A DNA stretch of 64,000 nucleotides, taken from assembly GCA_026874595.1 (NCBI GenBank), contig CM049314.1:11586729-11650728 (forward strand), in the 5' to 3' direction. Below the pieces are notes generated by a model. It was given only the letters and a program-made list of their open reading frames with translations, was not told where the DNA came from and did not search any database. The stretch is from Sipunculus nudus (taxonomy: Eukaryota; Annelida; Sipuncula; Golfingiida; Sipunculidae). Each line of letters opens with the position of its first letter. Position 1 is the stretch's first letter. Both the position numbers and the translations under genes were made by a program. Below, piece by piece: positions 14,678-61,923 of the stretch.

Positions 14678-14834
14678 TCACCCCTGGGTTCCAGGGGGTC
14701 CTAACCACCAAAGCCGGAGTGAGTTGTCGATAGCTTCTGCTTGCTCTGCCTCGGAATCGGATTCCTCTCCTGCCGGCAGTGGGAATTTCCTCTGGCCTGA
14801 CGCTGTTGCCAAGACTGGGAGGGTAGGATGTAAG
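14678..14834 (-). CDS. WRAP53: WRAP53 exon 14, terminal exon
   Basis: Acceptor GTTTTGCAG. It encodes residues 639-690: [20 protein letters not shown], an acidic loop, NSLRLWW, then GPPGTQG and TGA. Human WRAP53 has [15 protein letters not shown] and LQLWW at the same place, which closes the propeller. Although 24 kb from exon 13, phase (AG+C, Ser) and homology make the join firm. The acceptor belongs to a short tandem array extending to about 15060. Confidence 0.95.
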
Positions 14835-18683: not shown

Positions 18684-18718
<35 letters not shown>

Positions 18719-21700
18719 GCAATGTTTAAAACAGGCCAATCACAGAAATTAGTCCATGTGCAAGAATGTTTATTTGTAGTCATCAAAAATGAACTGATAG
18801 CCTGAGATAACACACATATTACTGCCAATGTTTATACAGTCATAAGCCAGAGAGCAATTTTGATGAATTTAAGGCTTATCACAGTGCCCTTTTCAAGCAT
18901 ACCATAAATCGCTTAGTAGAAATAGCATCCTAAACAGAAGATGCACCCAAAGTTTGCATACAATGGCATGTCTCTTGCATAAATCCCCATTAAAAGACAC
19001 ACTTAAATTTGCCCCTCTTATAGGCACTCCTGGGATATAATTTCTCATTTTCGTTTTTCCTACACTACAATGGTTGAAATTAAATTTCTGGCAGGTAAGT
19101 ATGCCATGCAATAATTGTATCCACATCTTGTTCAAGCATAGTAGGCCTCAACAGGAGGTAAGCTGGATAAGGTGTAAGCCTCATCAGGATTTACTAAGGT
19201 GCAACCTGCACACACACACAAACACACATACAAAGGAAAAATGTCTTTATCAAGCTTGCTTCAGTATCTAACTGCTTTAAATTGCCGGACTGCAGAGAAA
19301 TTTAGCAACTGCAAGTGACATTAATTAAAAAACATTACTTGGACTTATTTTGTTCAAACCATGCATGATGACAGGGGCAAAATTCTGACTGTATTTTTTA
19401 AATTTATTAAATAAATGCAAATATAACAGTCTGCTCATCCGACAGTGCAATGATTGCTTCCAGTTTACTTCCAACATGACTTTCAGTGTATTAATAGATA
19501 AAATATATCTTTCCAAGACTTTATTTCATGTTTCCAAGGAGATGTTACCTGTCTTGATGATAAATAAGGATGGAAAGGGAGACAGATGAAGAATGATCGT
19601 AAAAAAGACACACCAATATCAATCAGATGACTAAAAGGCAGCCAGGCTCAAACCTTGCAAACAACAGGACTTTTAGTAAGAGGACATCTGATTAAATATG
19701 TGAAGATTTTGTCACAAATATTGACAGTATCAGTAAAATATTTAATCTGTGGCCAATCAAAGACGTGCTATTCAAAAGGGACTGCTTGAAGGGATAATAT
19801 TGGTTTCACTGCATTCATACCACAATTGTTAGAAAATGAGATGAACAACCCTGATTTTCTTGGCCTTGTATAACTGTAGAAACAACAAAAATCTCAGGTA
19901 AATAATTTAATAGCAGATTTTACTTTTAAAATTGTACAAAAGAGGCCTAGACTTCAGAACTTTGCAGATGTTATGTATGAAAATGAATACAGGATTGTAT
20001 AATGTATGTGAGGGCAAATGCTGAGTCAATCTGCTGTTATACAGTCAGCACTAAATAAATTATCCAGGCAGTACCAGACATAGGCACTGGCCCCTCCTTA
20101 CTTTCAACAAGTCAGCAGTGGTTTGGTGAAGCCACTGGGGTATTTATTGGAGTAATTATTTCATGTTTAGAAAGCTTTCACAGGTCCTGGTACAGTGTCC
20201 CCCTTCACCTTCTCTACAGGGGTCAGTACATATGGGATTATATGGGTGTATCCAGCACAAACATAGCTTTCACATTAATTAAACTATGTACATTAAACCC
20301 CCATGGGTGGACACTGATCCTGGCCCCACAGGTCACCACCAGGCCCTCTCTGCTGCAGTCAGTGCTGACTCTGGCTTGGTAGTGTTATGTGACAGACCTA
20401 ATTTTCCTACAGCTATACCATCCCTGCATATTAATTTGTGTGAATCCCATAACTGTATTTTAAGTGTGTGTATTTCTCATGTGTCTTATTAAAGACCTTT
20501 AAGCGGTATATAACACCAGAGGACCAGAGTTAGTTCAAATTAACTGTTTCAATATTTCATTCCTAAAAATTATATTTTACCACTGTAGTAAAGACATGAC
20601 ACTGTGAGTTACCTCGGAATCAATTTAATTAATTCTTTACTTTTGATTTGATTCTTGATTCAGTTACTACTTTAGCAGTAAATATCAGACTATTTTTTAA
20701 AAAAAAAACAAGGGACCTGTGGGTCAAAATGATCAGCTGAAATTGATTCTGAGAATATTTGTATAAAATCCTAGTGACTGTTTTGACTGTGTACTTATAT
20801 GGACTATATAAAAGATGCAGGAGCCTCTCATGATCACAAACATGTATTTGTTAAAGTTTCAGTATTTCAACTTAGTGACTGTAATATGCACGTATATATA
20901 TTCACTGGGATATATAAAACTTGTAGCCTGAAACCGTTTAATGATTCAATAAGAAAAAAAAAAAATTTTTTTAACATATCCATTTTAGCATGAGTAGTTT
21001 TAACATATTCATTTTTTTTATTTTTCAAATTTTATCAATTTTCTTTATAAAAAAAAGTATATAAAATTTTAGTTGATTCACAACTGTAAAGTGTCATGTC
21101 TAGAGACTGTTGTTAAAGATGTCAATCCACTGACATAACAGCCACCAGGGACACACAGAGATTTTACACATAATATGGAGGTTAGTGTTATGCATTTCAT
21201 AAAATTTGAAATTATATGATTCAGGAAATAGGTAAGAAATTGAGAAGATTATCAAAATAAGTTACTGAAATAACAGTTTGTTATCTATATTAATGATTTT
21301 TTTTTTTGTTTTTGTTTTTAATGTGTTAAATGCTTTTGATCAGTCAAGGTATATAGAGAGGGGTGTGTTTACATTGTCAATTTCTGTATATATTCTGTCT
21401 ACTATTTCTAATATTGCATGTTGGTTGAATGCTTTTTCTGAGTCCATATTGGTTATTATGTAGTAAATTATTTATGTGAAGGTATTCATATAATTGATTA
21501 TATTATATATAATTTTTTAAAAATATTTGTTTAAATACTACGTAGAAGTGATATTGGCCTGTAATTCTCAGGCAAATGAATGTTTTCCTTTCTTAGAATT
21601 GAGTTTATTTTTGCTATTTTTAGTTTACCAGGAAAGATACCTGTGGTTAGTGATTGGCTTATAATAATACATAGTGGCTTGATAACGACAGGACCAATTT

Positions 21701-24700
21701 TCTTTAGTAAATTACTAAAGAGATCATCATAGCCTTTAGTTTTTTTTGCCTAAGATTATTGATTATATTTTGGAATTCCAACTCATTTATATATTTAAAT
21801 GTTAATAAGTTGTCAATTTATTTTTTATGTAGTTAACATATTGTATATTATTTATTTCATCATTATTTTTTACTTCATTATCCATTTTTGTACCTATATT
21901 GCCAAAGAAGATATTTAAATGATATGCTGTTTTTTCAGGATCATTTAATTTTATTGCCATTGATTATGAAGTATTCAGGGAGGCTATTTTTCTCTTTTGT
22001 TTGTATTATTTCTTTGATTGTTTCCCAAGTTATTTATATATCTGTTTTATATTTACTGAATTCATTGTTATTGTATTGTTGCTTTGCTTCATGTATAGTT
22101 TTTTTAATGATAATGTTGTATAATTCAAGTTGATGTTTTTCTTGGTATACATTGTATTCTATGCTATTTTTTTCTGATGCTCTCATGGATTTGTACAGTT
22201 TATCTCTATGATTGATTGATTTGATGAGTCTGAATATTATCCATTTTTTTTTTGTTTTATGTTTGTTATATTTAATTCTCTTTAGTGGTATGTTTTTATT
22301 TATAGCTTGAATCATAATTTGTTTTTTAGAATATTAAAGTATATATTAAGAGGTTTGTGTTTAGTTTATCAATAATTTTTGTTTGATGATTCTTTGTAGA
22401 AGGAGTTTATTGATTGAGGGGATATTTTATGTCTATAGATGTAGTGGTGCTTTCTCAAGTTTTTATATTGCAAAACAAAATTGATAGACAGAAAGCATGG
22501 CAGGGGATCAGAGATGTTATTTATAATAACACCTGAGTGATTTCAGCTGAGGGAAATGTTTGTAAATATATTATCAAAGAGTGTTGCATATGTGTCTGTT
22601 ATCTGAGTGGGTATTGCTATACTCGCATTTAGTCCATGTGTGTGTATTGTTTCTAGAAAATTACTGTATGGGGTTTTATTTTTTAGATTTTATTTTAAGT
22701 AGATCCATATCAAAATCACCAGCTATAACTAGAATAAGGGCAGTCAACAAGTGACAACGTGTATCCGCTGAAATAAGAGTGGGACAGGTGAAGTGAGGCA
22801 TGGATTGAGTTGCAAAGGGAAAAAGAGTGAGATGTGTTACGTATTAGCATGGATGTCTGCAGCCAAAATGAGTATGTAGGTGGCGCCAACTGCCACAAAA
22901 TCCAGAAAGCTATCCAAGATGTATATACATGCAAAATTTCAGGCAGATAAAGCAAACAACTGCCTAGGTATGAGTAATTTTATCCAACGGCAGGCAGATG
23001 GACGCTGTGCAAAATGGTTGTAGGTGGTGCCACCAGTTTTGCGAATGTTATAAAGCTATCCAAGGGCTACATTTGTGCAAAAGAATTTTCCTGATCGGTC
23101 AAACGGTTCCCGAGATATGAGCTTGGATGTCTGCAGCGTAAACGTGAATGTAGGTGGCGCCACCTGTCATAAAATCAGAAAAGCTATCCAGGATGCTATC
23201 CAAGGGCTACATTTGTGCAAAATTTTAAGCCTGATTGGTCAAATGAGTCCGAAGATATGTGGGTTAATATGTAAAAATGGACGCACAGATGGACACACTG
23301 GAGAGAAGAAAGGTCAGAGGTCAACGCAAAATATTTTGGTACCAGTTCACATATGAACTGATAATGGCATTTCAGAAAAAAAATCTGTCCAGTGGTCTAA
23401 GATTTCAATTCTGGAAAGAAATCTGGCGGCTGCAGCTGAACCTGGTAAAAAACATAGTATCCACAAAACTTTGTTTTGGCAGATACAATATCTGCATTAT
23501 ACTTATTTATTTGAGCAAGTTTAGCAGTTAACTGGTAGATTAATTGGTTAATATCATCTATATTGTTGTTATTTGGAGGTTTGTATAATATATTTGCAAG
23601 TTTGATACTCTTGTTCAATTCAGAAAATTTTACTTTAATAAGCTAGAAATTTCTGACATTGGAGATGCCTTAGTATCCCCAGACATAAAATAGGCTCATG
23701 TGACCTTCATCTTTGACCTTGTGACCTTAAAATGGATAGGGGTCTTCCTCTATTGGCAGGTGAACTATATGTGCATGATAAAAGGTCTGAGATGAAAAGT
23801 TTGGCTGAAAATGCATCCACAATCTTTTCAAAGATGTGTGCCCTGTGACCTTGACCTTTCACCTCATGACCTCAAAATCAATAGGAATCTTGTTTTATTG
23901 ATGGGCCATTTATGAGTCAAGTTTGAAACCAATGTATCAATCCAAGCTGAACTTATCATCAGGAAATGAATTTTTTGACAGATGACTCTTGTGACCTTCA
24001 CCTTTAACCTTATGACCTTAAAATGGATAGGTGTCTTCCTCTATTGGCAGGTGAACTACGTTTGTAAGATAAAAAGTCTGAAATGAAAAGTTTGGCTGAA
24101 TATGCATCCACAATCTTTTTAAAGATGTGTTCTGTGACCTGGACCTTTGTTCTCATGACCTCAAAATCAATAGGGGTCTTCCTTTATAGTTGGGGCATTT
24201 ATAAGTCAAGTTTGAAATCCATATATCAATCCAAGCTGGATGGCTCCTGTGACCTTCGACTTTGACCTTGTGCCCTTAAAAAATGGATAGGGTGTTCCTC
24301 TATTGGCTGGTGAACTATTTATGCAAGATAAAATGTCTGAAATGAAAAGTTTGGCTGAAAATGCATCAACAATCTTTTAAAGATATATCCTGTGACCTTT
24401 GACCTCCTGACCCAAAAATCAATTGGGATCTTGCTTTTTTGATGGGACATATATAAGTCAAGTTTGAAACCCATACATCAAAAAAAGCTAGAATTATCAT
24501 CCAGAAACTAATCTTTTGACAGATAGCTCAAGATGTTCAAGATGGAAGATCTGGGATGAAAAGTTTGGCTTAAAATGTATCCATAATATCTTTAAAGATG
24601 TGATTCAAGTGACCTTTGACCTTATGACCCTAGAACCTATAGGGTTCTTACTTTAGTGGTGGGCCATACATAAGTCAATTTTGAAATCCATATAGCTATC

Positions 24701-45700: not shown

Positions 45701-48700
45701 GTGTATAATGATTTGTCTATTACATATATTATCGTTTAAAGAGTCTTTCTTCAGTTGAGTTTGTTGTGTGTGGATGCCGGTTGAAAGTTTAGTTACACGT
45801 AACAAGAGTGATTCTTTTAAAAAAGAGTATTTTGTAGGCCTGAATTCTATAATAATATACAAAAAATTATAACTACTTGTGTTCTAATATAACCATACCC
45901 ATAGAATCATACTTACAAGATGGTCAAAGGCACGGTATGTACACCTGATTTCTCCGGTGTAGGCATCCCACATGTGAACCGGTGTACTCTGACTGGTGCT
46001 CACTAAACTGTAATGGTCAGAGTCACATACATGAGAGAACTAATTAATAAACACCCAAAGCTTGGTACCAGTTTGTTCCATCTCATCCCATGCTTGGTTT
46101 ACACATGGCTTTGTATGTATTATAGATTAAACAATAGTTTGTTGACCAAGATCAGAGTAAATCAGTTCATGAAAGAAAAGTTGATATTTCCAAAATTTTG
46201 CATTTATTTCCACTTTAAGAGTCTTCAATTTCTTGCTATCCCAACAAGTGATTATTTTACCTAATTTTGATAGCATTTAAAAATTCAAAATATCATTTTT
46301 GCATGGTATACTCTAAGCCCCATATTAAATTAAATTAATTCAAACTAATAAATCTAGACAGGAGCTATATTTTACTATTATGAATCCTCTAAAGATATGA
46401 GGAGATGGAAGAAAAAGTACAGATGTTTTACCAGCAAGTAGCAGCGTCAGATGAGTTCATCAAGGGGTACCAGCAGTAGTCGTAAATCAAACTACCCTCC
46501 TGAAATCTCAGCACAGAAGTCTGAAACATAATGCAAAATATATCATTATCAAGCAGGCCAGACATGTACCAGAGGGTCCAAAATATTATACAAATCTATA
46601 TGAAATATAACATAATTTCTCCTGAAATCTCAGCACAGAAGTCTGAAACATAATGCAAAATATATCATTATCAAGCAGGCCAGACATGTACCAGAGGGTC
46701 CAAAATATTATACAAATCTATATGAAATATAACATAATCTCTATCATGCATGTTACTTATTACTGGCAAACTCACAACTACAAATATCTAACATATATCT
46801 TAAAGGGTATAATTCTAAAGCACAAATTCCAACGGAATATGTTTTACATTTTAGCTTTAAAGATCAAGAACTTTTATGTTTTGCTGACCATCTATCAACT
46901 GGTACACTTTTTAAGCATTGTTGAAACTTCTGTATTAAACAGTTGCTGTCAAGAACTAGATGTGTGAAATAACTCCTAAAAGAAAACAACTATGTGGAAT
47001 ATTTTACTTATGATCTGAAATCAAATGTGTACCTAATTAAATGTCATTATTTATTTTTAATAAATTGATGTTTGTGATATGCCTATGACTGGTGATACAT
47101 ATGCTTGTTATACTGGTTCACTGTGTGTGTGTGTCACATTTATAAATACCTGTTATGTGCTTATCAACAGTTCTGTAAATACATGTACATGTAAAACAAA
47201 TTCATGGTTCCTACAAAATTTTGGAATGCACATACAAGGTATTGTATAGGATTTCAAGGACATAAATTTTCTAGGCTTTTTTTCATGGGCTCCTTTAAAA
47301 CCCAATCAGCTGTCAAATCTTTTTTATTCAAATTTTTTTGCACTAGTCTAGTTTACAAAAACTAGGGACCCCTGGGTCTTGACACTCAGCTGAATATGTC
47401 TATATGGACATGTTTATGAACTTTTTCAAGATGTGGGTTCTGTGATCAAGTTCATAGCCATTCTGTCTACCCATACTTGAGTTATCATCTATTATCTAAT
47501 TTGTGAATGGATGGGCTCTTTGACCTTGAACTTTGACCTTGTGACCTCTAAATCAAACAGAATCTTTCCCTATTGGCAGATGCACCACATGTGGAAGATG
47601 AAAGATTTAAGATGCTACGTTTGGCATAAAATGCATCCAGTCTTTTTAAAGAAGTAGGTGCTATGACCTTGACTTTTGAACTCATAACCCCAAAATCAAT
47701 AGTTCTTACTTTAGTGGTAGGCCATATAAAAGTCAAGTTTGAAACCAATATTTCAATCCAACCTGGAGTTATAATCTGGAAACAAATATGCTGACAGTTG
47801 GCTCCTGTGACCTTCACTTTTGACCTTGTAACCCAAATATCAATCATTTTCTTCCCCTATTATAAGGTCAGCTATATGAGCAAGATGAAGGTTTGGGATG
47901 AAAAGTTTGGCTTAAAATGGATCCAAACTTTTTCTAAATAAGTGGTTCCTGTGACTCTGACCTTTCACCTCATGACATGTGGTGCCACTAGTCTTCATGA
48001 ACTGAAGAAACTAGCCTTTATCAATAAACACACAATGTTTCAGGACACTAGATGAAACAACACCTGAGAAATTGACATAAAATAATTACTGTCATTTGAC
48101 CTTCTCAAAAACAAACAAAAAATTGTAAAAATTAGGAAAAATGCAGTAACTGACAACATTGGTCTTGGTCATTATTAAAGACAAAATTCAAGACAATCCA
48201 TGCATTAGTTATTAAGATACAGGAGGGTTTGTTTCAAATATCTAATCATTCTAAGGGGTATTTATAAGCCCCATAACTCAGAGGATATGTGCCTGTGACC
48301 TTATTTAAAGTTTCCTGGGAGATTTTTATTGAACTCCCTGCATGTTCAATTAAAAGTTTCTAGGCCAAGCAGTTATGATTTGTGCCTTGCTAATGAATGG
48401 TCAGACAGTGGGATGGATGACGGACAAAGCGCCATTCCTATATCTGAGTTGACTTTCAGATATCTGATATCTCTATTCATGGTTTACAAAGTCAGCCTTC
48501 TTCCTCTTGATCTACTTCATCAAAACATTAGTGAAATTCATTTTATACTATAATGCATTATACTTTGTCTGATCTTTAAAATATCTCAATTGACGCACTG
48601 GTAAAATACTAGAATAACAATTGTGTGCATGAAAGCTGACCAACCATCTCTTCTCGAACATCAGTACTGCTGGGCTGCAGGTCTGCTGGCAAGTTGAACA

Positions 48701-51700
48701 GACGCAGACAGTTATCATCGCTGTTGGTCAGGATACAGCTGCCATCTGGTGACCTAAAATGGAATCAGTGTTAGGTCCCTCCTTCAGAGTAGTCAATGTA
48801 TTTATACAGCTGCCATCTGGTGACCTAACATGGAATCAGTGTTAGGTCCCTCCTTCAGAGTAGTCAATGTATTTATACTGATGATGAATCAGTGTGAGGT
48901 CCTTCCTTCAGAGTAGTCAATGTATTTATACTGATGACAAATAAGGGTCAGGTCCTTCCTTCAGAGTAGTCTATGTATTTATACTGATGACAAATCAGTG
49001 TTAGGTCCCTCCTTCAGAGAAGTCTGTGTATTTATACTGATGATGAATCAGTGAGAGGTCCCTCCTTCAGAGTAGTCTATGTGATTAAACTGATGACGAA
49101 TTGGTGTGAGGTCCCTCCTTCAGAGTAGTCCAACAAAGGAGGACTAATGACAAAACCTAAAAAGGTCCCCTGTTCTGGAAAGGGAGTCCGCAAAAATTGT
49201 CTGAAAACCTAAAAGAAAGGTAGTTTTGGCTGAAACAAGGCCTACAGGCCCAATGCGAACTGTTCAATGAGATAAACACCAGGTATAATGCTTCAATGCT
49301 GGACCATTACTTTTCAAGTACACATGTAACATGTATATGAACAATGCAAGTTCTATAAACATTTTGAATAAGGAACAATTACACAAATATCACTGCTGGA
49401 ATTCTGGCATTAGTGCACACAACACAAAAATGAATGAAGCTGGCACCACCAGTCTTGTATACAACAAAGCTATCAGAGATATATACATATGCCCAATTTC
49501 AGACCGATATACCAAACCCCTCCTGGGAAATAAGCAGGGCCATACACTGTGCAAAAATTAATGTAGGTGGCACCACCTGTCTTGTATTCATCAAAGCTAT
49601 TTGATATGTATAAATATGCTCAATTTCAGGCTGATATATCAAATTCATCTGTAGAAATAAGCAGGCACATACACTGTGCAAAAGTCATTGTAGGTGGCGA
49701 CATTTGTCTTGTGAACGAGAAAGCCATCAAAGACACAGACAGGTCAAAATATCAGGCCAATACATCAAACTTACCTTGAGTCTGATGCATGGGGCTGACC
49801 AGACTTAGGTGAGAAAGGCAGTTGCCCCGAGTGAACTGTGACAAATTTGCTGGCTCAGGCTACTGCACTAAGTGAACTCATGACCTGCATCTGGCTAGAC
49901 TGAGTGAACTTTTGACCTGTACCTGGCTGCACGGAGTGAACTCTTGACCTGTTGCATAATCTGACACAGTAAGTAGTCCATATGCAGCCCTGAGGGGCAT
50001 GACACCAATGAGGTGATCACATGGTGGTCATGAGGTGTTCACATGTCATCCATGAGGTGATCACATGCCTTGTTCTTGGCTGCACTGACTGAACTCTTTA
50101 CCTTTATCTGGCTGCACTGAATGAACTCTTGTTCTGTTGCCAAATCTGAAACAGTTGGCAGTTTCTCAACCTATATAAAGATACAAACAAAATCGTGGCC
50201 TGTTGGTAAATCTGTTTACACATACTGAAAGACTTTGGCTAAAATGCTTTTTTTTTCAAGCTGACATATTCATAAACTTTTTATCAAAATATCTAAAATA
50301 ACAAAAGATGCCGTTCTTTCTTTGATAAAGGTCCAATAATTCTGCCAAAAATCATTCAAGTAAACTTGTTCAAAGGCCACCTAAGAATATTTTTTGTGCA
50401 ATGTTACAGAAGTTATAATTGAAACAATAATTTTGTAGAAGAAGAGTTTTGTAGTCCTCAGTTTGAAATAGATATAATAATGGCCATAAGACAAACTTAA
50501 GCTTTTCTGATATGATTGAAAGAACCATGTCCTAGCATAATTCTTTTGAAAAATTGAACAATTCAACTTGACAGTTTCATCATAAACATTTTAAGCTGAA
50601 AGAGGCTAAAATTATGAGGTTTTTGCCCATAAAAAACAGGTCAATGAAGGTGGCACCACAAAATCTGCAACCTCAAATATGAGTCATGTGACCAATATTT
50701 GCACAATACTTTATAATGCTAGCTTCTGTCATTTCTGAGATTACTATGTCAGTATGCTTAATTGGCCAAACGACTGTTCAAACTCGTGTAAGACCACTAA
50801 AATTCATCAAATGCAAACCATATGAACAAACTTGAGAGGGCTTGCCTCTGGGATCATTTTTGTAAAATATTGAACAATATGGCTGGACCGTTTACAAGAA
50901 GAAGTCTTTTAAAGGTTTTTCAGCTTTTTCCCTATAAAATCTAAGTAAATGCAGATAGCAAAAAAATAAGCTGAATCCCACAACATTTTATATGTGATGG
51001 ATTATTGCATAAAATCTAGGGATGGTGGCTCCTGCTATTCCTGAGAAATCATGGGTTATTGTACAGATGACCAATGACCCCTGTACAAAACAAGGGACCT
51101 ATGGGTCACGGCGCTCAGCTGATCCTTATTGGACTATAAATGTATCACCATTGTGATACTATATTGAGTAGATAAAGCTTAGAATATCATGGTCATGTTG
51201 GGTTTTATAAAGGAATATAATGTAATATGTGAGTAAATGATATCTGAAATAACCTGACTGATGGATTAATATGGAGTAAAATATAGTGGTTTATTTTTTA
51301 TTTATTTGGGAGGGGTCGAAAAAAAAGCAATTTATTTGAGCAAATATGAATGCAATGACAGTATGCTAAGCAGTGGTATAATGATGATAAGGCTATTTGT
51401 TGAAGGATCTATAGTGTATGGAAAACTGCAAGAGTTCAATTTGACAGATAAAAGGTTATGATTAACTATACTGATGAGGGGATTTATGAATTTGTGACTG
51501 TATGACATAATATCTTGACAAGATCGGTCTTGACAAGGTGCATTATTTTGATGACCCTCACGTCTACATATTACACAATATTGACATAATTTCTGGCATG
51601 TACATAGGTACCTATGGACAAATGGTCAACAGTACTGAACCACCTGGAAGGTTAAAATCTTAAAAATATGATGAACTGTAGATAATGTTTGAGAGGAAGA

Positions 51701-52487: not shown

Positions 52488-52518
<31 letters not shown>

Positions 52519-55500: not shown

Positions 55501-58500
55501 CCATGTACAGCCATCTTTATATACCCACAGAGAGCTGTGTACCTGTGATTGTAAACATTGCCTGCCATCAGGAATATCTAAAATCATAAATCTACATTTT
55601 TTAAAAGCTTTTAAAAAACATTCTTGTCAATATTAACCATTGAAAACCTTAAATCTAAATGTCTGGAGGCATGATGTAACGGATGCTGATAAACTGGTGC
55701 CAGTCTAGATGTATCTGCTTTACACAGCTAACATATATGGTAAAATGACTCAATACAATCTTTATAATTCAGCCAAAATTCATCCTTGGAATCATAAAAG
55801 ACAATTATTATAAGAATTATTCATGGGATTATTCCTGTAAAATATTAAACAAATTGGCCTCAGTGGCGTCAGTCAAAAAATCGTTTTGCAGGTTTATAAC
55901 TCATATGGGAAAATACAGCAAAATGGTTAAGTTAAGCTTCCCATAACTAACCCAAAAATTACTGAACCAAAACCATTTGAACAAACTTGAATTATCAACA
56001 TCTAAGGATAATTAATGTGTGAGATTTAAGAATTTGGCCCAGTGGTTTTTGAGAAGTTTTTTGTAGCCACTGAGTTAAAATTGGCTGTTATGGCATATGA
56101 CTAAATTCAGCTTCCCATAACTCAGCTAAAAGTCACTGAACTGAGACCGCTTCAACACACTTCAGAAAGCACTACCCTAGGATCAATTCTGTGTGATATT
56201 AAACAATTTGGCCATATGGTTTCAGAGAAGAAGTTTTTTGTTGCAGTCAGTATGATACGGGCACTGATGACCCCCGTAAAACAAAGGCCGATGCAGGTGG
56301 CGCCACCAATACCTCTATTTCAGATATGACTCATGTGACCAACATTGGCATAAAATTTGGTGATGATAGCTCCAGCCATTTCTGAGATTGTAATTTTAGT
56401 ATGCTTTTTTGGACAGACGACTAAGTTCAACTTCCTGTAACTTGGCCAAAAATTACCGAACTTAAACCATTCGAACAAACTTGAGAGAGATTGTTGCAGG
56501 AATCATTTCTGTGAAATATTGGACAATTTGGCTGAACAGTTTCGGAGAAGAAGATTTTTAAAGCTTTTTTTTAGCTTTTTCCCTATAAAATCTAAGGAAA
56601 TGCAATTAGCCCAAAAATAAGCAAAATCTGATAGTTTTTTAGATGACTAATTTTTTGCATAAAATTTCGTGATGCTAACTCTTGCCGTTTTCAAGATAGT
56701 ATAGGTTAAGGTACAAACGCCGGACAATGCCACACCAGCACATAAGCTCACAGCTTCCCTAGAAAAAGGGGGGAGGGTGTCTGGATCCCCTGCTCCCTCC
56801 CCATCCCCCCCTGATCCACTTCTGATCAGTCAGGATCTATTCATTTCATTTTTTTATTTGTCTCAGGCTACCAGGTTTCACACAGACAAATTAAGTATCT
56901 CACCATTTGCAGCCTTTGAGAAAGTTATCTCCAACTACATCAAATTCTGTCCAGCATCCCGTCAACTGAATTGGTGGTCTGCTAAAGTCAGCCTTCCAGC
57001 TGAAAATAAATGAAACAAAAATTGACATACAAACACAGAGGTTTAAATGTGGAATTACACCTTTATCATGTATTTTTTAAGTTTTAAAGAAACTGACAGA
57101 TCTTACATAAGTTTTGACCAAGTTCTTGTGTCATACTGGCTGAAATATAATATTTTGTCTAAGTCATAAGCTACAGATCTGAGGCAAGAATTAAAACTAC
57201 ATTCATTACTTATTGCTTTTACCATGGATGTTTAAAAAAATTCTCATTGGTCATTTTCCAATAAAGTATCTCACTTCATATAATATGCAACTCTTTTGTA
57301 AAAACAATTGTATATTGTTTCTTTCAGAGTATTTTGGTGAAATTGCTTTGGTGTGTAGCTAATTCTAACTTATTTGATCATTTTGAGACTTTTCATAGCA
57401 TACCACTTCCTGGGTCAGCTTACCTTTATTATCTCACACCATGCATGTCATTGGACTGTCTTAAGATATCAGTTCATGTTTATACTCCTTATGAAGGGTT
57501 TATATGCTGCATGCTTTCCATAACTCCTTTCATGTAAACACTGTATGCTACAGCATGATTTACTGGGTTTTACCACCAGAGGAGACACTACCAGGTAGAG
57601 ACATTAGAAAAGGAAACTTAACTCTAATGAGAGCCAAATTTTGCATTGTGGATTCAAATTTGAAAACCTTGGAAGTTACACCTAGCAAACAAATCTAGAG
57701 CAAGCAATGGTTTAATGGTTACAGAGAGATTGCAGCACATAACCACTTTGTAAAGAATATATCATGAGTATAACAGAACCTGTCAATTTGTCATCTTTTA
57801 CTTTAATGAGCCAATTTCCATCCTGCTACTATGTTCACCTGCACTGACAGTGTACTTACCTGTGCTGCTGGTATGTTCAGCTGCACTGACAATGTACTAA
57901 CCTGTGCTGTTGGTATGTTCACTTGCACTGACAATGTACTAACCAAAGGTGCTGTTATGTTCGTCTGGTATGTTCACCTGCACTGACAATGTACTAACCT
58001 GTGCTGCTGGTATGTTCTCCTGCACTGACAGTGTACTTACCTGTGTTGCTGGTATGTTCACCTGCACTGAGTGTACTTACCTGTGTTGCTGGTAAGTTCA
58101 GCTGCACTAACAAAGTACTAATCTGTGCTGCTGGTATGTTCAACTGCACTGACAGTGTACTTACCTGTGCTGCTGGTATGTTCACCTGCACTGACATTGT
58201 ACTTACCAGTGCTGCTGGTATGTTCAACTGCACTGACAGTGTACTTACCTGTGCTGCTGGTATGTTCACCTGCACTGACATTGTACTTACCTGTGCTGCT
58301 GGTATGTTCACCTGCACTGACATTGTACTTACCTGTGCTGTTGGAATGTTCACCTGCACTGACATTGTACTTACCTGTGCTGCTGGTATGTTCACCTGCA
58401 CTGACAGTGTACTTACCTGTGTTGCTGGTATGTTCAGCTGCACTAACAAAGTACTAATCTGTTTTACTGGTATGTTCACCTGCACTGACAGTGTACTTAC

Positions 58501-61500
58501 CTGTGCTGCTGGTATGTTCACCTGCACTGACATTGTACTTACCTGTGCTGCTGATATGTTCACCTGCACTGACATTGTACTTACCTGTGCTGTTGGAATG
58601 TTCACCTGCACTGACATTGTACTTACCTGTGCTGTTGGAATGTTCACCTGCACTGACATTGTACTTACCTGTGCTGCTGGTATGTTCACCTGCACTGACA
58701 GTGTACTTACCTGTGTTGCTGGTATGTTCAGCTGCACTAACAAAGTACTAATCTGTTTTACTGGTATGTTCACCTGCACTGACAGTGTACTTACCTGTGC
58801 TGCTGGTATGTTCACCTGCACTGACATTGTACTTACCTGTGCTGCTGATATGTTCACCTGCACTGACATTGTACTTACCTGTGCTGTTGGAATGTTCACC
58901 TGCACTGACATTGTACTTACCTGTGCTGCTGGTATGTTCACCTGCACTGACAGTGTACTTACCTGTGCTGCTGGTATGTTCACCTGCACTGACATTGTAC
59001 TTACCTGTGCTGTTGGAATGTTCACCTGCACTGACATTGTACTTACCTGTGCTGCTGGTATGTTCACCTGCACTGACATTGTACTTACCTGTGCTGTTGG
59101 AATGTTCACCTGCACTGACATTGTACTTACCTGTGCTGCTGGTATGTTCACCTGCACTGACAGTGTACTTACCTGTGTTGCTGGTATGTTCAGCTGCACT
59201 AACAAAGTACTAATCTGTTTTACTGGTATGTTCACCTGCACTGACAGTGTACTTACCTGTGCTGCTGGTATGTTCACCTGCACTGACATTGTACTTACCT
59301 GTGCTGCTGATATGTTCACCTGCACTGACATTGTACTTACCTGTGCTGTTGGAATGTTCACCTGCACTGACATTGTACTTACCTGTGCTGTTGGAATGTT
59401 CACCTGCACTGACATTGTACTTACCTGTGCTGCTGGTATGTTCACCTGCACTGACAGTGTACTTACCTGTGTTGCTGGTATGTTCAGCTGCACTAACAAA
59501 GTACTAATCTGTTTTACTGGTATGTTCACCTGCACTGACAGTGTACTTACCTGTGCTGCTGGTATGTTCACCTGCACTGACATTGTACTTACCTGTGCTG
59601 CTGATATGTTCACCTGCACTGACATTGTACTTACCTGTGCTGTTGGAATGTTCACCTGCACTGACATTGTACTTACCTGTGCTGCTGGTATGTTCACCTG
59701 CACTGACAGTGTACTTACCTGTGCTGCTGGTATGTTCACCTGCACTGACATTGTACTTACCTGTGCTGTTGGAATGTTCACCTGCACTGACATTGTACTT
59801 ACCTGTGCTGCTGGTATGTTCACCTGCACTGACATTGTACTTACCTGTGTTGCTGGTATGTTCAGCTGCACTGATAATGTACATACCTGTGCTGCTGGTA
59901 TGTTCACCTGCTTGACAGTGAACTTACCTGTGCTGCTGGTATGTTCACATGCACTGATAGTGTACTTACATGTGGTGCTGGTATGTTCATATCCACTGAC
60001 AGTGTACTTACCTGTGCTGCTGATGAGTAGGAGACAAGAAAACCTCAGTCCCTTCATCACTGCTTGACTCCACAACTTTGTCCACCTTCAGTTCTAAGGC
60101 CTTTCCTTCTAAGAATTTTAAGAAGAGTGTATTCAGCTGAAGGAAATCATTAAAACATGTATAATGTCAAATAATGATCACAAAATCAATCCACAAACTG
60201 ACGAATAAGCTGTCTACTGTGGACAAGTATCATGGTAAACATTAATGTTATAACATTCTAGAACAAAAACATAAAACAATGGAGTACCCTCCCCCCCCCC
60301 CCCCAAAAAAAAAAATTTAAACAATAGTTTGGAACGGAAATTAATTCCACTGGACATAAAAAATTAGGTGACAAATATGATTGCATAACTGATGGAAAAT
60401 TATAGCTGAGCTGTGTACAGTTTAACAAATAACTCAGCTTACCGTTAGTGTTAGTGTTCTCCGGTGGTTTCACAGCTTCTGTTGACTGAGTTTGTTTTTC
60501 AGATTGGCTGCCCATGTCCTCTGTGGCCCTGTTTACACTCAGACTAGTATCATTTACACCAGTTTGTCCTGACACTTCACCACTCAGAACCGACGGTGGC
60601 TCACTTCCCTCACTGGTGGAGGAGAACAAGCTTGTATCACTATGCAACAAGGCACTACTTTCTGCTGTCTCTGACTGAACTCCCTGGTTAACACTACTCC
60701 TGTTGTCAACCACTGCATCAGGAGTCCTTCTTGTATTATCACAGCTATCATCAGATTTTGTGTCTACATTAACTTCCATATTACTACCGACATGCAGCTG
60801 GGGATTAGAGGTCACCTGACCTTTGACCTCTTGCTCTGATTTATCAGTTTGTGATAAGTTACCACAAGCTTTCAGTTCACATGCTGTATTACATTCCTCA
60901 CCGTCTTTCTTACTCTGCATAGACTCTACTTCTGGATCTTGTTCACTCCTCTGACCTTCTGTTCCCATGGTAACAGTCACATGATCTGCTGGTGATGTAC
61001 TGTAATTTATTTGCTGTTTTTCTGACACTGTAGTACAACTTCTCACACTTTCACTAGTCCTTATATCAGAATCAACTACTGCTGCCCCCTGGTGGAGAGT
61101 TTCATCACAAGGCTTTTTAAATGGTGTTTGATCAGAATCAGTGGTCGCGTTTCTCCTTTTTACTTGCAGTTTTCCCTGAAAACAAAAAACCTTTGATAAA
61201 ACAATATGCATCAAAGGCATAATAAACTATCTTTACAGATTTCCATCACAGATATTTTTAACTGAGAAGCCGATTACTTAAAAGAGTTACAATCAATATA
61301 AATGTAACACAATATGTCAATCTGGATTTACAGTTTCACTTCATCAATTTAATTTCTGCATTTTATTATAAACTTTACACCTCTCTCACAGACAAAACAA
61401 AGTCCTGTAATACTCAGGGCTATGGGCTTATAAAGTCACACTGATCTGCATAAGGGGTGTGCCGATAAATCAATGATTGGTCGTTTTCTTTCAAACTCAG

Positions 61501-61923
61501 ACCATCATTTGTTAAAAAAATTGTATATCAGTTCAGTCATATTTCATTTTGAATTAATCATATGGAATCCACACATGCAAGAATATTACTTTGCCCTCAA
61601 ACTCAGATAATTGCTAAAGTTGCCTGATATGCATCTAAGCTTAACTGAGGTGAGCTTTAGTGGATTTTACAAATTCACAAAGGAACAGGTGGACAGGGGT
61701 AGTAGAATGGAGTATAGTGATATTTCTCTTCTTACCTCATGGGCTCCATCAGACTGATCATGATTTCTCTTCTGACTGGTAGAATCACCTGGTGGGCTGA
61801 CTGGTTCTGTCTCCACTGCCTCAACTTCACCACTGCAACAGACCAAATAAACCTACATTGACTGGCTTGCGATTATCTATAATAAAAGTTTACTTTAAAT
61901 ACTGCCATGAAGCCTTACCTCAT
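14678..61923 (-). CDS. WRAP53: WRAP53 / TCAB1 orthologue (telomerase Cajal body protein 1), 14 coding exons, 690 aa
   Basis: This WD40 scaffold binds the CAB box of small Cajal body RNAs and of telomerase RNA and brings them to Cajal bodies (known for the vertebrate protein). Coding exons on the minus strand: 61919-61923, 61736-61832, 60443-61175, 60012-60108, 56904-56999, 48645-48753, 46432-46520, 45917-46007, 43955-44087, 43274-43363, 42257-42375, 40699-40802, 38862-39014 and 14678-14834. They join in consistent phase to 2073 nt without internal stops. Residues 1 to about 310 are acidic and low in complexity; about 320-670 form the WD40 propeller. Diagnostic stretches shared with human WRAP53 include [63 protein letters not shown] and a C-terminal LRLWW. 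The human protein is 548 residues; the extra length lies in the N-terminal region. The identity is secure; the start codon and exon 1 are less certain. Confidence 0.95.
14835..15060. repeat. Tandem array of the exon 14 splice acceptor
   Basis: CTGCAAAAC-type motifs start at 14835 (the real acceptor), 14868, 14901, 14934, 14969 and, degenerate, 15005. Spacing is 33, 33, 33, 35 and 36 bp. On the transcribed strand each unit reads AA.TGTACTTTTGATT.TGTTTTGCAG|CC, that is, a pyrimidine tract and an acceptor. Use of an upstream copy would add sequence that reaches an in-frame TAA. Confidence 0.85.
15215..15705 (+). repeat. TTTTACCACACACATATGC minisatellite
   Basis: About twenty degenerate copies of GTTTTACCACACACATATGC with period roughly 22-28 bp and loss or gain of short segments. 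It produces His/Thr/Tyr-rich open frames that are not genes. It lies just inside intron 13, beside the exon 14 acceptor array. Confidence 0.85.
16507..17255. mobile_element. Inverted-repeat element (MITE-like)
   Basis: The ends AGCCTGCCACCCACTGGTGA and, in reverse complement, AGCCTGCCTCCCACTATAGA agree at about 24 of 29 positions. Subterminal copies of ACTGGTCGCCGA occur in opposite orientations near 16760 and 17155. A short palindrome, TGCGACT-GCA-AGTCGCA, lies at 16613-16629. No clear target duplication and no transposase. Confidence 0.5.
17350..17364 (+). repeat. Poly(C) run
   Basis: A run of 15 C bases inside intron 13, equivalent to a G run in the WRAP53 pre-mRNA. Confidence 0.9.
17512..17960 (+). 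repeat. ACTTGGACTTG repeat, copy 1
   Basis: Built of variants of GACTTGTACTCAGACT and TGGACTTGGACTT, with flanking ACTCGAGTCCAG and GGACTGGAGAAA. An inverted copy lies at about 37920-38430, so both ends of intron 13 carry complementary sequence. Confidence 0.65.
18047..18626. mobile_element. 580-bp element with perfect 23-bp terminal inverted repeats
   Basis: TATAACTCTGAAGAAAAACA (plus ACA) at 18047-18069 is exactly inverted at 18604-18626. The left end abuts a TA microsatellite, and another TA run begins about 60 bp beyond the right end. The interior includes GTTTCACGGGATGCGACCCG and ATCATCAGGTGAA, a 'fold-back' type motif. No transposase frame; non-autonomous. Confidence 0.7.
18686..18715. 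repeat. TA microsatellite
   Basis: An uninterrupted (TA)n tract, one of several in the window (also 6532-6576, 18029-18050 and about 44836-44857). Confidence 0.85.
18720..20700. other. Intron 13 sequence, nothing recognised
   Basis: AT-rich sequence with a short CA-rich stretch near 19208-19235. Open frames are short and unlike proteins. No exon of the host gene is expected here, because exon 13 to exon 14 phase is complete. Confidence 0.4.
20703..20760 (+). repeat. Family A left end, truncated element
   Basis: AAACAAGGGACCTGTGGGTC followed by GATCAGCTGA matches the family A left end and subterminal motif. No right-end hairpin was found before the LINE fragment that starts near 21250, so the length is unknown. 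Confidence 0.45.
21250..22726 (-). mobile_element. LINE fragment: end of endonuclease and reverse transcriptase, decayed
   Basis: The minus strand reads, in broken frames, endonuclease signatures [24 protein letters not shown] and SDPLP (near 22730-22500). A basic Lys/Tyr-rich linker follows (ORF 22034-22315), then reverse transcriptase signatures ENYRPISLL (about 21570) and TPLSIYLD-stop-SKAFNTL (about 21330). Frameshifts and stops show it is dead. This is an APE-type non-LTR retrotransposon, perhaps Jockey- or CR1-like. It ends before the catalytic YxDD region, and no 3' tail was seen. Confidence 0.75.
22727..23489 (+). mobile_element. Family B (GGCGCC) Helentron-like element inserted in the LINE
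   Basis: The left end is AACTAGAATAAGGGCAGTC, followed by GTATCCGCTG. The right end is a hairpin, GTATCCACAAAACTTTG and GGCAGATACAAT. The interior holds several copies of the motif around GGTGGCGCCACC and a conserved CTTGGATGTCTGCAGC segment. LINE endonuclease sequence continues on both sides in the same frame, so the boundaries are well supported. Confidence 0.75.
23490..23640 (-). mobile_element. LINE endonuclease, middle fragment
   Basis: The minus strand reads [19 protein letters not shown] and [11 protein letters not shown], a typical APE endonuclease stretch (usually VIYRPPN...). It continues directly into AGDFD across the family B insertion on its left. The family C element at 23641 separates it from the N-terminal fragment. 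Confidence 0.75.
23641..25273 (+). mobile_element. Family C Helentron-like element with nuclear-receptor-like repeats, inserted in the LINE
   Basis: The left end AGCTAGAAATTTCTGACAT is followed by AGTATCCCCAGACA. The right end is CATGGTACCCCGACTTTGTC then TATGGATACAATAA, a hairpin. The interior has about five repeats of roughly 170-190 bp with TGTGACCTTGACCTTT and TGACCTTTGACCT (24393-24405, 24610-24622). LINE fragments flank it on both sides. Confidence 0.7.
25274..25626 (-). mobile_element. LINE endonuclease, N-terminal fragment
   Basis: The minus strand reads, with frame breaks, [32 protein letters not shown] and HRGLMIYL, the start of an APE endonuclease domain (N-x-x-S, LQETWL). With the fragments at 23490-23640 and 21250-22726 it forms one LINE copy split by two younger elements. 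Confidence 0.75.
25627..25952 (+). repeat. Family A left end fragment
   Basis: AAAACAAGTGACCCATGGGTC and GACGCTCAGCTA match the family A left hairpin and subterminal motif. The sequence runs into the next family B element with no family A right end. Confidence 0.45.
25953..28534 (+). mobile_element. Family B element with 280-bp tandem satellite core
   Basis: Left end: AACTAGAATACGGGTAGTC, a GTAGTC/GACTAC hairpin (25966-25984), then GTATCCGCC. Right end: a hairpin with GTATCCGC, AAAAC-TCT-GTTTT and GGCGGATAC, ending CAAT. The core, about 26640-28260, is a near-perfect tandem array with period about 280 bp. Each unit has two half-units, each headed by GGTGGCGCCACC. The 60-75 aa frames on both strands are repeat artefacts. 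GGCGGCGGCGG lies just before the right end. Confidence 0.8.
28535..29936. other. Intron 13 sequence, nothing recognised
   Basis: AT-rich sequence between two family B elements, with no repeat match noted and no protein-like open frame. Confidence 0.4.
29937..31199 (+). mobile_element. Family B element, second full copy
   Basis: Same left end (AACTAGAATACGGGTAGTC), same right hairpin (GTATCCACAAAACTCTG, GGCGGATACAAT), and shorter core with about two to three satellite units. Its last 300 bases, including the GGCGGCGGCGG stretch, are almost identical to those of 25953-28534, which suggests recent common origin. Confidence 0.8.
31200..32650. other. Intron 13 sequence, nothing recognised
   Basis: AT-rich sequence with only short open frames; no repeat family identified. 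Confidence 0.4.
32650..34265 (+). repeat. About 57-bp satellite array with higher-order structure
   Basis: About 28 copies of a unit containing CTGGTTAATTAAGTTTTGTG, TGAGGTTGTGAGAACAGATG and GCAGAGCAAAAAGATTC. Two unit classes alternate: CAGAGCAAAAAGATTCCTGC and CAGTGTTAAAAAGATTCGCGC. A block of about five units near 33228-33548 recurs in the same order near 33776-34086, a higher-order repeat of about 545 bp. Confidence 0.9.
34266..35245. other. Intron 13 sequence, nothing recognised
   Basis: AT-rich sequence. An open frame on the plus strand at 34790-35005 has no recognisable domain or splice context. Confidence 0.4.
35246..36894 (+). mobile_element. Family C Helentron-like element, second copy
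   Basis: The left end AACTAGATATTTCT is followed by a perfect hairpin, TGGCAC-GACAG-GTGCCA (35260-35276), then TAGTATCCCCAGACA. The right end is a hairpin, GTATCCCCCGAC-TTT-GTCTGGGGTAC, then AAT. The interior repeats the TGACCTTTGACC segment (36227-36239) and two GGTGGYGCCACC segments (about 35483 and 35666). Confidence 0.75.
37377..37810 (-). mobile_element. TRIM-type mini LTR element with tRNA-Pro primer site
   Basis: Two direct repeats of exactly 157 bp (37377-37533 and 37654-37810) begin TGTTA and end TAACA. They are flanked by a 4-bp duplication, ACTT (37373-37376, 37811-37814). On the minus strand the first LTR is followed after 3 nt by TGGGGGCTCGTCCAGGAT (37650-37633), a primer binding site of tRNA-Pro type differing at one base from the well-known retroviral one. 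A polypurine tract, AAGAGGGGATG (37544-37534), precedes the second LTR. TATA boxes (TATAAAAG / CATAAAAG) lie near the LTR starts. The 120-bp interior has no coding capacity, so it depended on other elements' enzymes. The LTRs have diverged noticeably, so it is old. Confidence 0.85.
37920..38430 (-). repeat. ACTTGGACTTG repeat, inverted copy 2
   Basis: The reverse complement carries GACTCGAGTCCAG, AACTTGGACTTGGACTTTGA, GACTTGTACTCAGACTTGG and GGACTGGAGAAA. These appear in the same order as copy 1 at 17512-17960. Confidence 0.65.
38862..39014 (-). CDS. WRAP53: WRAP53 exon 13
   Basis: Acceptor CTTATTTGTAG and donor ATAAG|GTATGT. It encodes residues 588-639, with [20 protein letters not shown] followed by a variable loop and HGDACNGI, which aligns with human DCTNGVS. 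The following intron is about 24 kb. Reading through the donor adds an unconserved tail, so a short retained-intron form is not supported. Confidence 0.93.
40233..40640 (+). repeat. AAAGGGGCCTAATCACCTAT dispersed repeat
   Basis: Its opening segment matches 63510-63600 on the plus strand and, inverted, 62100-62190. Length and right end are uncertain. It lies in intron 12 of WRAP53. Confidence 0.4.
40699..40802 (-). CDS. WRAP53: WRAP53 exon 12
   Basis: Acceptor TTTCCCCAG and donor GACAG|GTAATA. It encodes residues 554-588, with [18 protein letters not shown] and [10 protein letters not shown], matching human ELLCWDLR and [10 protein letters not shown]. Confidence 0.95.
42161..42239. repeat. 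Perfect 23-bp inverted repeat (hairpin) next to exon 11 donor
   Basis: GATTACCGTATTCAACATAA plus TGA at 42161-42183 is exactly inverted at 42217-42239, with a 33-nt loop containing GCAGCAGCTGCAGC. Such arms are typical of a collapsed MITE or a hairpin precursor. It starts 17 nt into intron 11. Confidence 0.8.
42257..42375 (-). CDS. WRAP53: WRAP53 exon 11
   Basis: Acceptor CTTTCAG and donor AGAAAG|GTATGT. It encodes residues 514-553, with [20 protein letters not shown] and GGRK, matching human GGHQGGITHLCFHPDGNRF. A perfect 23-bp inverted repeat begins 17 bases beyond the donor. Confidence 0.95.
43274..43363 (-). CDS. WRAP53: WRAP53 exon 10
   Basis: Acceptor TGGTTTCAG and donor ATCTG|GTAAAT. 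It encodes residues 484-514, with [12 protein letters not shown], then AAGSYSRS, the most conserved interior blade of the family (human KKQGQSGIISCIA and CGSYGRS). Confidence 0.95.
43740..43930 (+). repeat. 'ACAGTGGAACCTGTG...GGCCGCCC' dispersed repeat
   Basis: The composition and phrasing (CAGTGGAACCTG, GGTCTTAA, AAAGGTCAGTT) resemble a repeat class widespread in marine invertebrates. A weaker relative is at about 37130-37200. The call rests on recognition only. Confidence 0.3.
43955..44087 (-). CDS. WRAP53: WRAP53 exon 9
   Basis: Acceptor ATTTTACAG and donor TATG|GTAAGT. It encodes residues 440-484, with [23 protein letters not shown] and TRPGR. The last is the conserved loop after the blade, also TRPGR-like in human. 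Confidence 0.95.
45917..46007 (-). CDS. WRAP53: WRAP53 exon 8
   Basis: Acceptor CATTACAG and donor CATCTT|GTAAGT. It encodes residues 409-439, including [20 protein letters not shown], the WD blade that human WRAP53 shows as [20 protein letters not shown]. It ends at a codon boundary. Confidence 0.95.
46432..46520 (-). CDS. WRAP53: WRAP53 exon 7
   Basis: Acceptor ATGTTTCAG and donor TGCTG|GTAAAA. It encodes residues 380-409, with [20 protein letters not shown], a signature stretch of the family. The acceptor and the first 24 exon bases lie inside a nearly perfect 122-bp tandem duplication. Confidence 0.94.
46497..46740. repeat. 122-bp tandem duplication spanning the exon 7 acceptor
   Basis: 46497-46618 and 46619-46740 agree at 121 of 122 positions. 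The copies each hold 24 nt of exon 7, the GTTTCAG acceptor and about 97 nt of intron. The functional acceptor is in the left copy, because only that one continues into the rest of the exon. The near identity points to a recent event. Confidence 0.95.
47359..48462 (+). mobile_element. Family A element with TGACCTTGACC-type repeats
   Basis: The left end AACTAGGGACCCCTGGGTC and GACACTCAGCTGA match the copy at 8801. The right end carries CGGACAAAGCGCCATTCC and TGAGTTGACTTTCAGATATC, a decayed form of the right hairpin. The interior resembles 8880-9560 throughout. It lies in intron 6. Confidence 0.65.
48645..48753 (-). CDS. WRAP53: WRAP53 exon 6
   Basis: Acceptor CCATTTTAG. It encodes residues 343-379, with [20 protein letters not shown], closely matching the human first WD repeat. 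The donor is unusual: ATG|GTTGGT, with a pyrimidine at +3. The choice is supported by the human alignment (EM followed by VLR) and by phase. The first 21 exon bases plus the acceptor are duplicated 71 bp upstream in the transcript. Confidence 0.9.
48733..49135. repeat. Tandem array grown from the exon 6 acceptor
   Basis: A 71-bp unit (48733-48803) containing the first 21 nt of exon 6, the acceptor and adjacent intron is repeated at 48804-48874 with one acceptor-side change (CTAAAATGG to CTAACATGG). It is followed by about four shorter related units of 60-65 bp (GAATCAGTGTGAGGTCC, TTCAGAGTAGTCAATGTATT) that lack the exon part. Confidence 0.9.
49420..49780 (+). repeat. Diverged GGTGGCACCACC tandem segment
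   Basis: Three units of about 118 bp, each with a GGTGGCACCACC-like palindrome (or its decayed form), a TTGT..TACA..AAAGCTAT segment and ATTTCAGGC.GATATA. This matches the half-unit pattern of family B satellites but is older. Confidence 0.55.
50630..51086 (+). repeat. Family D repeat unit
   Basis: It matches units at 54946-55400 and 56275-56765: GGTCAATG.AGGTGGCACCAC, ATATGAGTCATGTGACCAA, CATTTCTGAGATT, TGGACCGTTTA, TTTTTCAGCTTTTTCCCTAT. It lies directly left of a family A element. Confidence 0.6.
51087..54945 (+). mobile_element. Long family A element (or two merged copies)
   Basis: Left end AAAACAAGGGACCTATGGGT, CACGGCGCTCAGCTGA; right end GCTCAGATGAC...GTCAGCTGAGC, TAAAA, after a GACGGACAGACAGACAG stretch. 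The segment 53040-54945 parallels 2215-4081 almost base for base in long stretches. An extra part, 51130-52680, includes a G-rich run and another TTCTGGCATGTACATAGG piece, so the length may reflect an insertion. Confidence 0.6.
52438..52520 (+). repeat. G-rich tract followed by GA microsatellite
   Basis: Short G runs at 52441-52467 (GGAGGGAGC and AGGGAGGG) merge into a run of about 14 G near 52473-52486, followed by (GA)n to 52518. The plus strand could fold as a G-quadruplex; the WRAP53 transcript carries the C-rich complement. Confidence 0.8.
54946..56765 (+). repeat. Family D tandem units
   Basis: About four units of roughly 450-480 bp with shared phrases (CTTCCCATAACT.GGCCAAAA, TTGAACAAACTTGAGAGAG, CAATTTGGC, AGAAGAAG.TTTTTAAAG). 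Both 55340-55395 and 56705-56765 end in a segment ACGATGCCAAACCA / AATGCCACACCAG then AGCTCACAG. No coding capacity. Confidence 0.6.
56904..56999 (-). CDS. WRAP53: WRAP53 exon 5, start of the conserved domain
   Basis: Acceptor TTATTTTCAG and donor AAATG|GTGAGA. It encodes residues 311-343 and contains [18 protein letters not shown], the conserved entry strand of the WRAP53 propeller (human has SWSEF...NFLKGCKW). It enters with one codon base and leaves with two (TG+G, Trp). Confidence 0.93.
57831..60030 (-). repeat. 42-bp minisatellite of exon 4 donor sites (about 52 units)
   Basis: The unit on the plus strand is GTACTTACCTGTGCTGCTGG then TATGTTCACCTGCACTGACA and TT or GT. On the transcribed strand each unit contains ACCAGCAGCACAG|GTAAGTA, the last exon 4 bases plus its donor. 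About 40 units carry TACTTACCTG exactly; about five read TACTAATCTG, and a few others are altered. A variant unit recurs at 58458, 58752, 59214 and 59508 (294, 462, 294 bp apart), giving a 756-bp higher-order repeat of 18 units. Because 42 is divisible by three, frames of about 690 residues stay open on both strands; they are not genes. Confidence 0.95.
60012..60108 (-). CDS. WRAP53: WRAP53 exon 4, whose donor seeds the 42-bp array
   Basis: Acceptor TTAAAATTCTTAG and donor CACAG|GTAAGTA. It encodes residues 279-311 ([20 protein letters not shown] and following), the end of the acidic region. The last 11 exon bases and the donor reappear in most units of the tandem array that fills the first 2.2 kb of the downstream intron. 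Reading through the donor in frame gives TAA at once. Confidence 0.85.
60443..61175 (-). CDS. WRAP53: WRAP53 exon 3, long disordered acidic segment
   Basis: Acceptor GTTTTCAG before GGAAAACTG and donor CTAACG|GTAAGC. The 733-nt exon is open throughout and encodes residues 35 to about 279, rich in Ser, Thr, Glu, Asp and Gln with no recognisable fold. This corresponds to the poorly conserved N-terminal region of vertebrate WRAP53 but is longer. A basic patch near its start ([11 protein letters not shown]) could serve as a nuclear localisation signal; that is an inference. Confidence 0.85.
61736..61832 (-). CDS. WRAP53: WRAP53 exon 2
   Basis: Acceptor CTGTTGCAG and donor GAG|GTAAGA. It encodes about residues 2-34, a charged, Pro/Ser/Glu-rich stretch without a domain ([15 protein letters not shown]...). 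The intron before it is only 86 bp. It enters with one codon base and leaves at a codon boundary. Confidence 0.8.
61919..61923 (-). CDS. WRAP53: WRAP53 coding exon 1 (ATG AG, 5 coding nt)
   Basis: An ATG in a good context (AAGAAAATGAG) is followed after two nucleotides by a strong donor, GAG|GTAAGG. Its phase 2 end joins exactly to exon 2 (codon AG+T, Ser), giving a protein that starts M-S-G-E-V-E. The same frame is open upstream to two more ATGs at about 61961-61971, after an in-frame TAG, so a start about 14-16 residues longer is possible. The 5' UTR and any upstream non-coding exon cannot be located from sequence alone. Confidence 0.6.

Follow-up and report, generated by a model that had tools for sequence, protein, structure and literature searches.

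Tandem duplications that carry a splice site have been described in lancelet genes under the name of mirages. The reported cases are Adh3 and the globin genes BflGb6 and BflGb9, with troponin C and PGBD5 as further ones (PMC3087553, PMC3902484; the last two genes in PMC3902484). In the parts of these papers available to us, mirages lie at either a donor or an acceptor, have units of 10-160 bp, are unstable, and are reported to leave splicing undisturbed. Intron gain through tandem duplication is represented, in the available part of PMC4974935, by the Rogers model, ATP2A1 and potato RdRp. The decoy exons of OGT, exon-like units in retained introns, have been shown to hold an intron back, according to the portion of PMC12017769 at hand. 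A TSSK1-like gene of abalone has a polymorphic intron minisatellite with a 27-bp unit (PMC6905558, also seen as an excerpt). No mollusc mirage was found among the papers listed by literature searches, as judged by title or by the start of the abstract.

Here we describe arrays at four splice junctions of the WRAP53 gene of Sipunculus nudus. As in the lancelet genes, tandem copies extend over the splice site and the exon edge, at exons 4, 6 and 7, and many of them retain their splice signals. WRAP53 differs from the lancelet cases, so far as the excerpts describe them, in having about 52 copies of a donor, in having three or four arrays in one gene, and in belonging to another animal group. Instability and normal splicing are reported for lancelet mirages, whereas the WRAP53 arrays are known here from the sequence of one assembly. 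Splice signals and exon sequence have been copied in WRAP53, as in the excerpted cases of PMC4974935, and its introns hold splice-site-like sequences that could rival the real ones, as in the described part of OGT. Judged from sequence alone, the WRAP53 copies remain in existing introns, unlike those cases of PMC4974935 with a new spliced intron or exon, and are tandem copies of one junction, unlike the OGT decoy exons. The abalone gene shares with WRAP53 an intronic minisatellite, there variable, which is not described as junction-crossing in the excerpt of PMC6905558. The WRAP53 structures are real, three of the four as first described, and of a known kind, in an animal group that is probably new for mirages. 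They extend junction-spanning minisatellites from lancelets to another animal group and, with the array in CCT7 described below, to two unrelated genes.

Structure of the WRAP53 gene

The window, the whole stretch of 64,000 nucleotides that was analysed (C9:11586729-11650728), comes from an assembly of 1,426,538,692 bases in 153 contigs, and contains WRAP53 (TCAB1) on its minus strand. The joined exons match human telomerase Cajal body protein 1 (7bgb_K, E 5.9e-83), and the best three of 1495 matches to the protein (120 listed) were from Haliotis, with 57-62% identity. Exons 2-14 were positioned by GT/AG signals, reading frame and homology. The coding part of exon 1 (ATGAG, 61919..61923, minus strand) has the donor GTAAGG and joins exon 2 in frame (MSGEV..); no array was found near this donor by TRF. 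With this 5-nt exon, the gene end point and the 26 coding splice sites given in an earlier note on this DNA hold. The 14 coding exons, when spliced at their exon-proximal sites, give a single open frame of 690 amino acids with one terminal stop, the TGA in which exon 14 (14678..14834, minus strand) terminates. Open frames resembling pieces of a LINE reverse transcriptase were seen by eye at 21531-22333 on the minus strand.

An array of donor sites at exon 4

Exon 4 (60012..60108, minus strand), whose acceptor was picked by reading frame, has the true donor CAG/GTAAGT (the slash marks the splice junction). TRF, unit parsing and shift analysis located a 42-bp minisatellite across this donor (57823..60022, minus strand). 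It comprises about 52 units, found by TRF as 49.1 and 3.3 copies, and its exonic share is the last 11 nt of the exon (60012-60022). Parsing from the true donor yielded 49 units. The sequence CAG/GTAAGT is present in 40 of these, the true donor counted in, and CAG/ATTAGT in five, while CAT/GTAAGT, CAG/GTATGT, CTG/GTAAGT and CAG/GTTAGT occur once each. Units at the edges of the array fit the consensus less well, as in the lancelet globin mirages so far as these are described in the parts at hand. By eye, the unit has a donor but neither a clear pyrimidine tract nor a clear acceptor.

At a shift of 756 bp (18 units) the array matches itself exactly over 832 nt. This match shows a recent block duplication, and the exactness of the block suggests that the array may still have been changing recently. 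Among 47 full-length units compared there were 14 distinct types. Across these types the nine donor positions had 1.0 variants on average, against 1.24 elsewhere, and ranked 15th of 42 cyclic windows; extra conservation of the donor letters inside the array was rejected on this ranking.

Acceptor arrays at exons 6, 7 and 14

Exon 6 (48645..48753, minus strand) and exon 7 (46432..46520, minus strand) were placed by homology, frame and splice signals. TRF detected 2.1 copies of a 71-bp unit across the exon 6 acceptor (48733..48878, minus strand; 21 exonic nt), extended upstream by a degenerate array of 5.6 copies of 53 bp (48833..49130, minus strand). The decoy acceptor AG lies at 48826-48825, and decoy and true acceptor are identical at 45 of 50 letters. 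Two 122-bp copies, identical at 120 of 122 letters, lie across the exon 7 acceptor (46497..46742, minus strand; 24 exonic nt), so that a decoy acceptor sharing 49 of 50 letters with the true site stands 122 nt upstream. At the exon 14 acceptor, about six units of 33-36 bp (14834..15037, minus strand; 5.8 copies of a 33-bp unit by TRF) repeat the sequence ..TTTTGCAG/CCTT.. and stop at the AG.

The arrays reported in the earlier note for exons 4, 6 and 7 were thus recovered with their exon edges, including the degenerate tail at exon 6. The note had also counted exon 14 as a duplicated exon edge. There the array is present, but the exon edge is not carried: the array includes just one exonic base, and the best nearby match of the 40-mer at the junction is 21/40, like that of array-free junctions. 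Four fully duplicated exon edges were rejected on this 40-mer result. Copies with exon edge and adjoining intron, as in mirages, are therefore found in three arrays, and the array at exon 14 simply abuts its exon. The exon 14 decoys have a pyrimidine-rich end and CAG in common, and match the true site at 18-25 of 50 letters. As in mirages, splice signals are kept, the full donor in the 40 exon 4 units and the AG in the decoys of exons 6, 7 and 14.

The near identity of the exon 7 copies and the exact block inside the exon 4 array would also be expected if the extra copies were assembly errors, produced by collapsed haplotypes or wrongly stacked reads, and a draft genome reportedly contained one published lancelet mirage in misassembled form, according to the available parts of the lancelet papers. 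This explanation is nevertheless highly improbable. Internal divergence is seen in the 53-bp tail at exon 6, among the copies at exon 14 and in the array of CCT7, and the exon 4 array has its 14 distinct unit types; copy numbers may be off, but the structures would still stand.

Touched junctions in WRAP53 and in control genes

Counting TRF arrays with a period of at least 10, there are 16 in WRAP53 after merging. Together they account for 18.2% of the gene, and four of its 26 coding junctions are touched by an array. When the 16 arrays were dropped at random with an exon intrusion of up to 30 nt, an average of 0.24 junctions was touched (expectation 0.24-0.26), and in 40,000 trials at least four were touched once and at least three 84 times. 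A version with 25 junctions gave 5e-5 over 20,000 trials; touch counts and the copy test described below also first used 25 WRAP53 junctions, the 26th (the exon 1 donor) being added afterwards, and the Poisson calculation used the 25. The cluster is nominally rare, and its rarity is post hoc, the gene having been chosen for this very cluster.

Nine chaperonin genes of the same genome, in stretches totalling 180 kb, served as the control. They were found by a search with PF00118, which gave 63 matches; 49 were kept and 14 left out. Five of those left out were intronless or bacterial-like (two on C74, two on C11 and one at C3:73093755), and the other nine were GroEL-like with an identical score. 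These nine match a bacterial-type GroEL with an open frame of 547 amino acids and no stops, and are found on C61, C62, C66, C72, C73, C75, C89 (two) and C99. They are possibly due to bacterial co-assembly, a symbiont or a contaminant. PDB searches placed and named the chaperonin exons. Of 62 exon matches 56 were admitted (E up to 0.02), and their 112 edges were taken as junctions.

The control stretches contain 40 arrays, amounting to 15.0% of the 180 kb; in the 20 kb on either side of the window, arrays cover 3033 and 1803 bases (15% and 9%). One of the 112 control junctions was touched, against 0.75 expected from array density, a count in which misplaced junctions or gene ends are possible and touched ones may be hidden, as the junctions were set automatically by a home-made consensus score. 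At ten further junctions of one chaperonin gene, judged by eye and used in the touch count but not in the copy test, no array touched the junction, the nearest lying about 20 nt inside the intron. The total is one in 122, a rate of 0.8% with 95% limits of 0.02-4.5%.

The touched control junction is the acceptor GTTTCAG/GTATAACC of CCT7, named by PDB search as T-complex protein 1 subunit eta. Its array, found by TRF upstream of the acceptor (C1:13059847-13060009), is 163 bp long, has TRF periods of 31 and 60, includes 12 exonic nt, and contains repeated edges in which a GTATAAC- or ATATAAC-like sequence comes after CAG (CAG/GTATAAC-like). Its structure is that of the WRAP53 arrays, in an unrelated gene.

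WRAP53 and the control differ in their touched junctions (4/26 against 1/122, Fisher P 0.003; P 0.017 if three are counted in WRAP53). For the first 112 control and 25 WRAP53 junctions together, five were touched against 1.0 expected (Poisson P 0.004), WRAP53 being a non-blind sample. At the control rate, and assuming 20,000 genes with 26 junctions each, about 1.2 genes with four touched junctions would be expected; the limits of that rate correspond to anything between about 0 and about 550 such genes. The WRAP53 cluster is compatible with a scan that singles out an extreme gene.

Copies of junctions compared with copies of random positions

An excess of touched junctions could also arise if a mutational process favoured exon-intron junctions, for example through slippage at AGGT or pyrimidine-rich sequence, or through repair linked to co-transcriptional splicing. 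In the copy test, each junction was represented by its 20 exonic and 20 intronic nt, and an ungapped copy matching at least 28 of these 40 letters was sought up to 1.5 kb away in the direction of the intron. Such a copy was found at three of the 26 WRAP53 junctions (exon 4 donor, 33 of 40; exon 6 acceptor, 39; exon 7 acceptor, 40) and at one of the 112 chaperonin junctions; the exon 14 acceptor and the exon 1 donor of WRAP53 scored 21 and 22. Random positions had a nearby copy in 56 of 250 cases in the WRAP53 introns, and in 50 of 300 at non-exon positions of the chaperonin stretches, flanks included. WRAP53 junctions did not differ from positions in their own introns (3/26 against 56/250, P 0.31). 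With both gene sets pooled, 4 of 138 junctions had a copy, against 106 of 550 random positions, which is a depletion (Fisher 2e-7). This depletion comes from the chaperonins, and is expected if exon sequence resists duplication.

Enrichment at junctions over random intron positions was rejected by this test, and the mutational tendency at junctions put forward in the earlier note drew no support from the comparison it had proposed, carried out here for WRAP53 and the nine chaperonin genes. Its view that duplication at four of 26 sites is more than accidental holds as to nominal rarity, by the placement trials and the Fisher test, but the rarity is post hoc and there is no excess over random positions. 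A junction-favouring process is therefore unlikely. It would account for the four touched WRAP53 junctions where about a quarter of one was expected, for CCT7 as a second gene with one such array, and for the repeated lancelet cases (PMC3087553 and PMC3902484, in the parts at hand). The nine other genes, with one touched junction in 122 and 0.75 expected by chance for 112, speak against it, as does the copy test, though selection on exon sequence lowers the count of copies too. With a control this small, a modest bias towards junctions could have escaped notice.

Consequences of decoy use

As the earlier note had read, use of the decoys leads to early stops. Reading through the true exon 4 donor gives an immediate TAA (AGG TAA), the exon 7 decoy a stop 18 codons past the exon 6 edge, and the exon 14 decoys a stop likewise within the extension; the 71-bp decoy of exon 6 shifts the frame and then meets TGA within that exon, as read from its letters. 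The note had suggested that WRAP53 output might be tuned in this way through nonsense-mediated decay. For comparison, 12 acceptors, the array-bearing ones included, were pushed upstream, and 12 donors were extended by 42 nt. Stops appeared in all 12 acceptor extensions of 71, 122 and 150 nt, in 11 of 12 at 35 nt and in six of 12 at 33 nt, and in eight of the 12 donor extensions. Decoy stops therefore say little, because most exon extensions of such length give stops, and stops as a mark of decoy function were rejected. Neither the extension test nor the conservation within the exon 4 array gave any sign of selection for or against the decoys.

Tuning by the decoys, through premature stops and decay or through an intron held back as by the OGT decoy exons, is accordingly very unlikely, and the suggestion of the earlier note is unsupported. 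The decoys at exons 4, 6 and 7 are close copies of real sites and lead to stops, and intron detention can come from decoy splice signals, according to the available part of PMC12017769. Yet extensions of this length usually hit stops, the donor letters of the exon 4 array are not specially conserved, and a similar array is present in the unrelated CCT7. In addition, a decoy exon has an acceptor and a donor together, and the exon 4 unit, inspected by eye, offers a donor but no clear pyrimidine tract.

Origin of the arrays

We think it probable that the WRAP53 arrays are mirages, that is, minisatellite-type duplications whose founding segment happened to lie over a junction, and that they cluster in this gene by chance. 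Tandem arrays are abundant around the genes studied here. Three junctions of WRAP53 and one of CCT7 lie at the exon-side end of such an array, and the exon-proximal copy is intact. A short tandem duplication over a junction would survive because the outermost copy still links the whole exon to a good splice site, and the extra copies would therefore be intronic. Slippage or unequal exchange might then enlarge the array. The spliceosome would be expected to take the exon-proximal copy and to pass over the others, as reported in lancelet mirages, and undisturbed splicing of WRAP53 is assumed by this analogy. The number of arrays in WRAP53 would be a chance cluster such as a genome scan would find. 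Most likely mutation drives the arrays, and they are tolerated and do little, because splicing would proceed normally from the copy nearest the exon. They look like a by-product of a repeat-rich genome. Some points stand against the mirage reading. About 40 perfect donors follow one another in series, so that unused decoys would need an explanation of their own, four touched junctions in one gene with 26 are nominally rare, and the pooled count of five exceeds the 1.0 expected.

With about 40 perfect copies following the true donor, the array at exon 4 offers a natural experiment on how the spliceosome picks the right one. If such arrays turn out to be frequent, new introns and exons could readily arise from them. 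It is conceivable, but distinctly unlikely, that mirages are common genome-wide, that the 40 or so exon 4 donors bind U1 snRNP along intron 4 and delay or set the splicing of WRAP53, and that spare junctions feed the birth of introns.

Arrays were also found in WRAP53 introns away from the junctions discussed. A 61-bp unit is repeated 26 times at 32663-34271, in the 24-kb last intron, with no exon edge involved. Arrays of 280 bp and one of 127 bp (26065-28305, 30109-30970 and 49425-49733) have, by eye, a common core ..GTAGGTGGC.CCACCTGTC.., and are probably one dispersed satellite-like family.
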